In this document: piece by piece, positions 5,755-53,362 of the stretch
Layout: the number at the start of each line of letters is the position of its first letter
How positions within the stretch are numbered: position 1 is the first letter of the stretch
Program-made: the position numbers and the translations under genes
NCBI RefSeq assembly: GCF_900101025.1
Contig: NZ_FMUH01000010.1
Span: 1 to 55,730, forward strand
From: Klenkia marina
Lineage (GTDB): Bacteria > Actinomycetota > Actinomycetes > Mycobacteriales > Geodermatophilaceae
DNA: 55,730 nt
Reading direction: 5' to 3'
The notes under the pieces: generated by a model
Seen by the model: the letters and a program-made list of their open reading frames with translations, nothing else
Databases searched by the model: none
What the model was told of the DNA's origin: nothing

Positions 5755-5789
5755 GAGAGAGTCAGCTCCTTGGATCGAGTAGGTGGTGC

Positions 5790-5847
5790 GGCCGCCCTTC
5801 AGGGGCCCGCGGCGAGCGTGCGAGTCGTGGGGGGAAGGGGGGTCCTT
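5790..5847 (-). repeat. Intercistronic stop-codon-adjacent repeat, copy A
   Basis: Read on the minus strand, the element begins immediately after the TAG of the proline dehydrogenase gene with AAGGACCCC and ends with GGGCGGCC before pruA. The outer stem inner pairs are CTTC with GAAG, and the core contains CACGACTCGCACGCTCGCCG. See copies B (17065), C (48871), D (50281) and E (53287). It lies inside the presumed proline operon in sense orientation. There is no U tract, so it is not an ordinary intrinsic terminator. Confidence 0.75.
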
Positions 5848-6774
5848 CTAGGAGGTCGTGACGAGGGAGCGGAGGAAGAACTGCAGGTTGGCCGGGCGCT
5901 CGGCCAGGCGGCGCATGAAGTAGCCGTACCAGTCGGCGCCGTAGGGGACGTAGGCGCGCACGGTGTGCCCCTCGCGGGCCAGCCGCTGCTGCTCACCGGT
6001 GCGGATGCCGTACAGCAGTTGGAACTCGTAGCTGTCGGCGGCGCGGCCGGTCTCGGCGACCAGCTCCAGCGCCCGCGCGATCATCGCCGGGTCGTGGGTG
6101 CCGGCCATCGGGTGGCCACCGCCCCGGAACAGGATCTCGAGGCAGCGCAGGTAGGAGGCGTCCACCTGGGACTTCTCGGTGAAGGCGATGGTGCGCGGCT
6201 CGGCGTAGGCACCCTTCACCAGCCGCACCCGCGAGCCGGCGACGGCGAGGGCAGCGGCGTCGGCCTCGGTGCGGTGCAGCGCCGACTGCAGCACCGCGCC
6301 GGTGCCGGGGTGGTCGCGGCGCAGCTCGGCGAGGACGGCGAGGGTGGAGTCGACCGTGGTGTGGTCCTCCATGTCGAGGGTCACCGTGGTGCCCAGCGCC
6401 GTCGCGGCCTCGGCGACCGGGCGCACCAGCTCGGTGCAGACGTCGTGCCCGCCGGGCAGCGCCTGGCCGAAGGCCGAGAGCTTGACCGACACCTCGGCGG
6501 CCCGGCCGAGCTGCAGCGGGGCCAGCCCGTCGAGCAGGGCGAGGTAGGCGTCCCGGGAGGCCACGGCCTCGGCCCGGCTGGTGATGTCCTCGCCGAGGTG
6601 GTCGAGGGTGACGGCGATGCCGTCGGCCTGCAGTGCCCGGACGGCGGTCAGCGCGTCGGGCAGCTGCTCGCCGGCGACGAAGCGGTCGACCACGCGACGG
6701 GTGACCGGGGTGCCGACGACGACGCGGCGCAGACCGGGCCGGCGGGACGCGACGAGCAGGGCCTGACCGAGCAC
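5848..6774 (-). CDS. Proline dehydrogenase (monofunctional)
   Basis: This FAD enzyme oxidises L-proline to 1-pyrroline-5-carboxylate. I choose the GTG at 6774 (308 residues): GGAGG (6780-6784) lies 5 bases upstream, and VLGQALLVASRRPGLRR matches how actinobacterial enzymes begin. An upstream GTG at 6831 would add 19 residues but overlaps the likely promoter. Family features of the TIM barrel are seen: SVKLSAFG, VRLVKGAYAEP (Lys for substrate/FAD), ATHD-like AGTHDPAM, EFQLLYGIR and YVPYGADWYGYFMRRLAERP with the paired Arg. It is the first gene of a two-gene operon with pruA and divergent from a PucR-type regulator. Confidence 0.93.
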   Translation of the reverse strand: MLGQALLVASRRPGLRRVVVGTPVTRRVVDRFVAGEQLPDALTAVRALQADGIAVTLDHLGEDITSRAEAVASRDAYLALLDGLAPLQLGRAAEVSVKLSAFGQALPGGHDVCTELVRPVAEAATALGTTVTLDMEDHTTVDSTLAVLAELRRDHPGTGAVLQSALHRTEADAAALAVAGSRVRLVKGAYAEPRTIAFTEKSQVDASYLRCLEILFRGGGHPMAGTHDPAMIARALELVAETGRAADSYEFQLLYGIRTGEQQRLAREGHTVRAYVPYGADWYGYFMRRLAERPANLQFFLRSLVTTS

Positions 6775-17027: not shown

Positions 17028-17064
17028 GCCAACCGCACCTCTCTTCAGGTCGTGCCCAGCGGCC

Positions 17065-17121
17065 GGCCCCGTCTCAGGGCCCCGCGGCGAGCTTGCGAGT
17101 CGTGGGGGGAGACGGGGTCCT
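17065..17121 (-). repeat. Intercistronic stop-codon-adjacent repeat, copy B
   Basis: On the minus strand AGGACCCCGTCTC follows the paaB TGA directly and pairs with GAGACGGGGCC at the far end. One A is bulged and all other pairs match. The inner part has CCCCCC, CACGACTCGCAAGCTCGCCG and GGGG. It separates paaB from paaC inside the paa operon. Confidence 0.8.
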
Positions 17122-17508
17122 TCAGATATGCGGGACGTTCTCGGGGATCTCGTAGAACGTCGGGTGGCGGTAGACCTTGTCGCCGGACGGGGCGAACATA
17201 GGGTCCTTCTCGTCGGGGCTCGACGCGGTGATGTGGGACGCGCGTACCACCCAGATGCTCACGCCCTCGTTGCGGCGGGTGAACAGGTCGCGGGCGGCGT
17301 GCACGGCCATCTCGTCGTCGGGGGCGTGCAGCGAGCCGACGTGGACGTGGTTGAGCCCGCGCTTGCCGCGCACGAAGCACTCGTAGAGCGGCCAGTCCTT
17401 GCGGGCCGCCCCCGAGGGCGAGGGATGCGCACCGCTGGGGACCTCGGGGCTGGTCGGGACGGCCCCGTGCCCGCCCTCGGCGGTCGTCTCGGTCGTCGGG
17501 TCGCTCAT
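17122..17508 (-). CDS. paaB: Phenylacetyl-CoA epoxidase subunit PaaB
   Basis: This 128-residue small subunit links PaaAC dimers in the epoxidase complex. The core matches the family: [54 protein letters not shown] and [16 protein letters not shown]. The first ~35 residues form a longer Thr/Gly/Pro-rich leader than usual, so a later start cannot be excluded. ATG 17508 overlaps the paaA stop by four bases (ATGA). Confidence 0.93.
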
Positions 17509-48845: not shown

Positions 48846-48870
48846 GCGGAGCATCCAGTCATGCAGGTAC

Positions 48871-48930
48871 GGCCCCCGTGCAGGGGCCCGCGGCGAGCGT
48901 GCGAGCGGTGGGGGGCACGGGGGTCCTTCC
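48871..48930 (-). repeat. Intercistronic stop-codon-adjacent repeat, copy C
   Basis: On the minus strand, the cysM TGA is followed by GGAAGGACCCCCGTGC, then CCCCCC, the core CACCGCTCGCACGCTCGCCG and GGG, and finally GCACGGGGGCC. The outer stem pairs fully except a bulged A. It separates cysM from the HAD gene. Confidence 0.8.
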
Positions 48931-50184: not shown

Positions 50185-50280
50185 GGCGGTGCCTTTCGTG
50201 GGGTGGGGTCACCTCGCGCAGCACGCAGCGAGGGTGGTCTCTACGGGACGGAACGGTCAGCGCCTGACCGTCATTCCGCC

Positions 50281-50341
50281 GGCCCCCTCGCAGGGTCCCG
50301 CGGCGTGCGGAGCACGTCGTGGGGGGCGAGGGGGTCCTTCC
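50281..50341 (-). repeat. Intercistronic stop-codon-adjacent repeat, copy D
   Basis: On the minus strand, the mec TGA is followed by GGAAGGACCCCCTCGC, CCCCCC, an inner hairpin CGTGC/GCACG with loop TCC, then GGG and GCGAGGGGGCC. The outer stem differs in sequence from copies A-C but stays paired. It lies between mec and cysO. Confidence 0.8.
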
Positions 50342-53286: not shown

Positions 53287-53343
53287 CGGAAGGACCCCGT
53301 CCTCCTCGTCCCTCGTACCTCGGGCGAGCCTCCGGACGGGGCC
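53287..53343 (+). repeat. Intercistronic stop-codon-adjacent repeat, copy E (divergent core)
   Basis: The pncB TGA is followed by CGGAAGGACCCCGTCC and closes with GGACGGGGCC. The core differs from copies A-D and forms its own stem CTCGTCC/GGGCGAG around a 10-base loop. It is on the plus strand, the same sense as pncB and pncA. Confidence 0.7.
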
Positions 53344-53362
53344 GACGGGCAAGATGGGCGGC

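Follow-up and report, generated by a model that had tools for sequence, protein, structure and literature searches.

A REP-like palindromic repeat family anchored at stop codons in Klenkia and other Geodermatophilaceae

Introduction

Bacterial REPs of the GTAG and CGTC superfamilies are 20-40 bp long and carry a GTAG or CGTC tag; their ends often supply a TAG stop codon to flanking ORFs, and CGTC REPs are without a known transposase (PMC3733652). In the sections of that paper drawn on here, REPs were reported from phyla other than Actinobacteria. Another structure associated with gene ends, the RTS, is a stable fold located directly behind stop codons, which lowers re-initiation and, in the part of the source used here, is described as more pronounced behind genes of abundant proteins and where neighbouring genes lie on opposite strands (PMC7518266). 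MIRU repeats, in the portion of the literature considered here, are stated to enter at start codons and to couple an internal ORF to the gene (PMC12548453).

The element described here is a REP-like repeat with unusual stop-codon anchoring. Like REPs, it is a high-copy palindrome that is unevenly distributed between species, supplies stop codons and, as in the case of CGTC REPs, has no known transposase. Unlike REPs, it is about 61-76 bp long, has no GTAG or CGTC tag at the start of the hairpin and, in the 19 family genomes searched, is not accompanied by a RAYT; it also lies mostly at one position and in one orientation relative to the stop codon, which sets it apart from REPs as they are described in the sections of PMC3733652 mentioned above. 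With MIRU it shares being an actinobacterial, apparently mobile repeat at gene junctions (PMC12548453, in the same portion), but it starts at stop codons and is a hairpin. It resembles the RTS in being a stable fold by position, with 121 of 155 copies starting at most 6 nt from a sense stop codon. Unlike the RTS, which its source presents as a general folding signal lacking a shared sequence, it is a homologous repeat family with species turnover and a better antisense fold. Integron attC sites also follow ORFs, act as a folded antisense strand, and have bulged bases and a variable inner part. The element resembles them in its location behind ORFs, its antisense fold, its bulged base and its variable inner part; its ends do not match what we take to be the terminal boxes of attC, and no cassette arrays were seen. 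In our literature search, with most subscription journals outside its coverage, no title or abstract opening described this family.

Results

The window, i.e., the whole stretch of 55,730 nucleotides of a Klenkia genome (G000) that was analysed, contains five copies of the element (Table 1). In the original prediction, five intercistronic copies had been listed that run in the same sense as the genes beside them and start at stop codons. They are present at all five places in that orientation, and the measured gaps between the upstream stop codon and their leading GAAGG range from -2 to +2 nt. In copies 1 and 2 the stop codon (TAG and TGA, respectively) is completed by the first bases of the element itself (TA-G, T-GA). 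The stem arms, the bulged A and the ends GGGGCC or GGGCGGCC are as had been claimed, with the addition of one mismatch in copy 1, and the functions assigned to the flanking genes are consistent with their Pfam matches (Pro_dh, Aldedh, PaaB, PaaA_PaaC, PALP, HAD hydrolase, Prok-JAB, ThiS, NAPRTase_N and Isochorismatase). Copy 5 has a different apical type (CTCGTACCTCGG) and is the lowest-scoring of the five (28.4 bits in R1, 36.9 in R2).

Table 1. Location of the five copies in the window and of further features mentioned in the text
Feature	Position	Strand	Gap from stop codon to GAAGG (nt)	Context	Arms or remark
Copy 1	5789..5848	(-)	-1	proline dehydrogenase/pruA junction; covers final base of TAG stop	outer arms CCCCCCTTC / GAAGGGCGG, single C.C mismatch
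Copy 2	17064..17123	(-)	-2	paaB/paaC junction; overlaps GA of TGA stop	variable arms GTCTC / GAGAC
Copy 3	48870..48929	(-)	+1	cysM-like (PALP)/HAD hydrolase junction; 1 nt past TGA	variable arms CGTGC / GCACG
Copy 4	50280..50340	(-)	+1	mec-like (Prok-JAB)/cysO-like (ThiS) junction; 1 nt past TGA	variable arms CTCGC / GCGAG; inner stem CGTGC-TCC-GCACG
Copy 5	53289..53344	(+)	+2	pncB/pncA junction; 2 nt past TGA	variable arms GTCC / GGAC
Tandem array	L052:2001-2252				
Tandem array	L123:434-595				
Tandem array	L130:16875-17057				
Tandem array	L126:6044-6153				
Sense copy followed by GTCCTTC	L133:8594-8653				
Sense copy followed by GTCCTTC	L139:9391-9450				
Retron-like reverse transcriptase	L291:5699-7153	(-)		same gene-order position in L292, L294, L295, L296	
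Second reverse-transcriptase match	G004:C12:17985-18635 (in L293)				37% identity

The sense folding z-scores of copies 1-5 were 0.22, -0.33, -2.00, -2.81 and -0.68, and the octamer AGGACCCC occurred 8 times versus 3.96 expected. As single-copy folds are unremarkable and this octamer is not rare, the case for the element rests on genome-wide evidence. A terminator scan covering the 45-55 kb region called no U-tract terminator at the three copies there, and there is no T run in the flanks of the copies. A search of the window against Rfam at gathering score returned two tRNAs only and no family for the element.

When read in the sense orientation, the element begins with GAAGG, followed by the bulged A and an arm CC..GC. 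Two C, one side of an internal loop (CC / NCCCT), then lead into an inner hairpin with as many as 12 pairs, which CCC opens and GGG closes; NCCCT, the other side of the loop, precedes the returning arm and GGCCG. The length of the element is about 61 bp, or about 76 bp with a 3' tail near TTCCAKCACGTCACC. The tail is carried by 34 of the 79 G000 copies, and its first three letters are able to pair with the leading GAA. The start is GAAGG or GGAGG, and there is no GTAG tag; CGTC occurs inside the tail of many of the tailed copies, not at the hairpin edge. Many copies without a nearby sense stop codon have CA directly 5' of GAAGG (L020, L026, L035, L044, L054, L063, L232 and L237), as do several copies at +2 (TGACA-GAAGG), so that the true left end of the element may be CAGAAGG.

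A covariance model built from the copies and a genome search, which had been proposed as a check, revealed a repeat family in Geodermatophilaceae. The first model, made from four copies with the outer stem alone imposed, gave at least 83 matches (E <= 0.05) in G000 (4.22 Mb, 14 contigs), and the second model, made from 60 copies, gave at least 86. All copy counts are lower bounds, since 143-150 first-look candidates were scored per genome, and 22 in the class sample. Among the 31 genomes sampled, 16 had the element: 9/9 of Klenkia and 7/10 of other Geodermatophilaceae genera, versus 0/12 of other families of the order. Klenkia genomes contained from at least 5 to at least 84 copies, and the seven carriers of other genera from at least 65 to at least 149. 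In a wider sample of Geodermatophilaceae, 28 of 38 genomes had the element. In the class sample, searched at E <= 1e-5 with stricter filters, it was found in one of 246 genomes, the window's own, and in none of the 245 others. Within a single genus (g11) copy number ranged from 0 (G037) to at least 132 (G018) and at least 134 (G044).

No two of the 60 copies compared were identical, the nearest ones being 81-97% alike, which indicates that the copies are old or were altered on copying, and that amplification may be over. Tandem arrays of two to four units were also observed (Table 1); some of their units are identical, and the left arm is often missing.

The position of the element relative to genes was determined with gene calls from a codon-usage gene finder trained on the window. 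In a set of 155 copies, from which tandem units and one self-match had been removed, 121 copies started at most 6 nt from a sense stop codon. Before this removal the counts were 57/79 in G000, 30/44 in four other genera and 34/42 in G005 and G006, the last being the better-scoring copies among the matches listed. Random intergenic starts, taken on either strand, lay this close to a sense stop codon in 2.65% of cases for the window and in 2.54% for the other genera, where the 20-kb stretches had been picked around known matches and the density is no genome average. Copies at random positions in both orientations, which had been named as an outcome that would speak against a structured RNA, are thus not what was found.

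The gaps of the 121 anchored copies were distributed over -3 (6 copies), -2 (22), -1 (20), 0 (1), +1 (39), +2 (30), +3 (1) and +5 (2), i.e., a stop codon directly abutted GAAGG in 1/121. A simple DNA target such as TGA is unlikely, as the element starts at -3, -2, -1, +1 or +2 from the stop. Of the remaining 34 copies, 8 had only the stop codon of an antisense neighbour near their 3' end and 26 had neither, and some of these 26 may adjoin missed genes. Antisense copies exist, for instance in G018 at the rplK/rplA junction.

In convergent gene pairs of G000, the stop codon of the neighbour was located exactly 5 nt (6 copies) or 10 nt (7 copies) past the hairpin in 13 of 26 cases, and in G005 and G006 in 9 of 20 (4 at 5 nt and 5 at 10 nt). 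At two loci, L133 and L139, the element start recurs as its reverse complement (GTCCTTC) no more than some 20 nt behind a sense copy, at the end of the convergent gene, as if two converging elements overlapped. Where the gene next to an anchored copy in G000 is codirectional, it begins 9-702 nt past the element.

Covariation was analysed in an alignment of 60 copies (A5) and judged against shuffled and slid controls. Altogether, 86.4% of cells were paired, versus 72.9% in shuffled alignments, and 175 cells were doubly changed, versus 50.7 (sd 4.9); the co-varying stem that had been seen in five copies thus extends genome-wide. The covariation score of 0.311 fell to at most 0.057 with the partner slid and was reached in 0/500 shuffles. 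As the outer stem was imposed in aligning, its 96.8% pairing is biased towards the model; the inner helix, which was not imposed, had double changes in 8 of 12 pairs. Distances between copies in the left and right outer arms were correlated (r 0.90) and those in the outer arms and the inner hairpin were not (r -0.05); the idea that the outer and the inner stem are linked by descent was rejected on that basis.

The mean sense MFE of the element is about -34 to -35 kcal/mol. The folding energy of the antisense RNA was lower than that of the sense RNA in 100 of 101 copies (59/60 and 41/41), by about 9 kcal/mol in the set of 60 and 11 kcal/mol in the set of 41. In agreement with this direction, A.C mismatches in the sense strand, which are G.U or G.T pairs on the opposite strand, outnumbered sense G.U pairs 125:5 in A5, 44:8 in the other genera and 97:0 in G005 and G006, the inner excess being mostly at two shared positions and possibly representing few events. 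In the outer stem the ratio was 21:6 overall (p 0.006), with 18:2 in Klenkia and 3:4 in other genera. The A.C excess and the better antisense fold argue against selection purely on a sense RNA, and for a step involving antisense RNA or single-stranded DNA. The original prediction favoured a structured RNA with the same sense as the genes, and this is supported in part: covariation, sense orientation and the start at stop codons speak for it, and the better-folding antisense strand and the excess of A.C over G.U speak against it. The inner hairpin, the 3' tail and the better antisense fold had not been part of that prediction.

The five junctions were compared in seven Klenkia relatives whose genes are in the same order, G007 being readable at 3 of the 5. 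The copy between proline dehydrogenase and pruA was found in G004 (with a decayed left arm), G005 and G006; the paaB/paaC copy in G004-G006, with differing stems and apical part; and the mec/cysO copy in G004 and G006. The mec/cysO elements of G000 and G006 are nearly identical, and the adjoining intergenic DNA has diverged. The cysM/HAD and pncB/pncA copies were in none of the Klenkia relatives compared. No clear target-site duplication was found at the empty sites of the Klenkia relatives; AAGG flanks both sides at the proline dehydrogenase/pruA junction and may be the ribosome-binding site of the next gene. In G002 and G003 (L106, L109), two short palindromes of the type NCGTCATGTGACGN, possibly regulator binding sites, replace the hairpin between paaB and paaC.

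Gene ends common to the G005/G006 copies and the G000 copies numbered 9 of 42. At 94% gene identity, L222 and L059 have stems that are wholly different yet paired. Among the proline dehydrogenase loci of 31 Geodermatophilaceae, the element was found behind the gene in Modestobacter muralis and M. lapidis, and several other loci had junctions of 10-20 nt or another palindrome. The latter lies directly behind the proline dehydrogenase stop codon in Modestobacter and Blastococcus (L147, L148, L150, L153, L161, L162 and L164), and has a TGGCCA-like centre and arms that vary from species to species yet pair, e.g., GGGCGGAAG TGGCCA CTTCCGCCC.

In other genera, 3 of 30 upstream proteins were common to the G000 copies (rplK, groES and one more). 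The rplK copy is alike in G016 and G000, which indicates that some sites are old. The rplK/rplA junction was inspected in 30 genomes: a sense copy of full length was seen in six, its stem being damaged in one of them, an antisense copy in one, shortened copies in two and relics with tail letters in two, and the other 19 were without the element. Thus, the element can sit in, and be lost from, an essential operon. Judged from the translations, G016 has copies behind nusG, rplK, rplA, rplL and rpoB, and G000 behind groES and groEL. Many relatives are without the element at the same junction, with no visible harm. The mobile REP-like repeat, which had been offered as an alternative to a structured RNA, is supported by the orthologous presence and absence, by the tandem arrays and by the range from 0 to at least 134 copies within one genus.

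As a candidate mover, RAYT (PF01797) was searched for in 19 Geodermatophilaceae genomes, 16 of which carry the element, and matched in none of them, while control genomes matched in 5/14; mobilisation by a RAYT was rejected. Five Klenkia genomes have a retron-like reverse transcriptase in the same syntenic position, next to a gene for a xanthine/uracil permease (Table 1). Its best PADLOC matches are RT_other and RT_outgroup, and it has an RVT_1 match; a match to the enzyme was present in 28 of 57 family genomes, several of them broken or fragmentary. G004 has a second, more distant match (Table 1). A candidate parS-like site in front of the enzyme was rejected, as its sequence differs and there was no exact match in 311 loci.

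Discussion

Taken together, these results indicate that the element likely spread as DNA and is best read as a REP-like palindrome for which no RAYT, the transposase usual in such repeats, was found in the genomes searched. Our preferred reading, to which we give a probability of about one half, is that it is a non-autonomous DNA repeat spread via an antisense-folding step, whose hairpin, once inserted, acts as a ribosome termination structure that blocks downstream re-initiation. The element would disperse through a single-stranded step with the antisense strand folded, and the sense hairpin behind the stop codon would keep the finished ribosome from re-initiating downstream. In the relatives that are empty at the proline dehydrogenase/pruA, cysM/HAD and pncB/pncA positions the junctions are tight, and hence an insertion there would uncouple the translation of the neighbouring genes. 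Copies behind genes of likely abundant proteins (groES, groEL, rplK and rpoB) support an RTS-like role. We infer that the element moves, or moved, as DNA by means of some enzyme, and that it insulates translation. Against this stand the better antisense folding, which an mRNA role does not predict, the 34 of 155 copies that are not at a sense stop codon, and the failure to find a dispersal enzyme among those searched. Further points against it are the lack of a clear target-site duplication at the empty sites, the absence of identical copies among the 60 compared, the age of some sites, the outer-stem ratio of 3:4 outside Klenkia, and the many relatives in which the junction is empty with no apparent damage. 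The element may also have a role in mRNA processing, in stability or in protein binding.

A bolder version, which we consider rather unlikely, is that the hairpin is a mobile element aimed at the ends of reading frames. Its dispersal would recognise terminating genes, and it would be inserted, mostly in one orientation, at most two bases from the stop codon by a non-RAYT enzyme acting on the folded antisense strand, rebuilding the stop codon from its own first bases and offering stops in its tail to a converging gene.

It is unlikely that the element is simply selfish DNA or a fossil repeat that does nothing where it lies, its pairing being upheld by template switching between the arms and not by selection. 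Template switching is, in the part of the literature drawn on here, a published route to compensatory changes (PMC8794818). The outer stem of A5 contains G.U in 2 of 653 gap-free cells, although its pairs vary widely, and this scarcity of G.U intermediates may reflect template switching, which is able to keep pairing without selection. Compensatory changes at single orthologous sites (L224/L017 and L252/L034, one pair changed from C-G to T-A in each) and the losses and relics at orthologous junctions fit the same explanation. However, it leaves the anchoring within two bases of the stop codon and the mostly single orientation unexplained, the fixed unpaired motifs (the A bulge, CCC/CCCT) are conserved, and the mec/cysO element stayed nearly identical in G000 and G006 next to intergenic bases that diverged.

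The strand preference could also be read as a sign of an antisense roadblock, i.e., a hairpin in opposite-strand transcripts coming from downstream that halts them before the 3' end of the gene, either as a terminator of convergent genes or against divergent promoter noise. The lower antisense energy in nearly all copies, the excess of A.C over G.U in the sense strand, and the tail that carries the stop codon of the convergent neighbour at +5 or +10 would suit such a function. We regard it as distinctly unlikely, as 31 of the 57 anchored copies in G000 precede a codirectional gene, and the antisense hairpin is followed by UCCUUC, which is no more than mildly rich in U.

Improbable, too, is the reading in which each gene end has one transcription terminator lacking a U tract, or one 3'-end stabiliser, kept by selection on the hairpin of the sense mRNA. 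The sense orientation right behind stop codons and the GC-rich stem favour it, and of the 57 copies anchored in G000, 26 have a convergent gene as their next neighbour; as 24 of 58 gene ends in the window are convergent, this enrichment is slight. A classical intrinsic terminator was rejected, none having been called at the three copies scanned, and the sense strand is the worse-folding one. Moreover, copies lie within rplK/rplA, nusG/rplK, rplL/rpoB, rpoB/rpoC and groES/groEL. That they come and go within essential operons argues against efficient sense terminators, and operon-internal attenuation by efficient termination, one of the roles suggested at the outset, is disfavoured by the copies inside rplK/rplA and rpoB/rpoC.

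Copying of the element from its (antisense) RNA by the retron-like reverse transcriptase is very improbable, and the enzyme was rejected as the mover: Klenkia genomes with it had more copies (84, 51, 40, 55 and 58 in G000, G003, G004, G005 and G006) than those without a match (5, 20 and 29 in G001, G002 and G007; one-sided p 0.018, leaving out G008, which is 73% complete, with 19 copies and a partial match), but this pattern may represent a single loss in one clade, there was no association in the 33 genomes of the family that are 90% or more complete (a median of 80 copies in 14 with an intact enzyme versus 68 in 19 without, p 0.66), the high-copy genomes G009, G010, G011 and G014 had no enzyme match, and no element adjoined the enzyme (best match E 0.33 within 12-kb regions).

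To return to the DNA repeat with a translation-insulating hairpin, short palindromic repeats of bacteria are usually linked to a RAYT and loosely intergenic, whereas the present family is mostly anchored within two bases of stop codons, in one orientation, and a RAYT was not found. In related species a given junction, for example that behind rplK, occurs naturally both with and without the element, which makes it directly testable whether the hairpin insulates translation and which machinery is able to bring DNA to gene ends.
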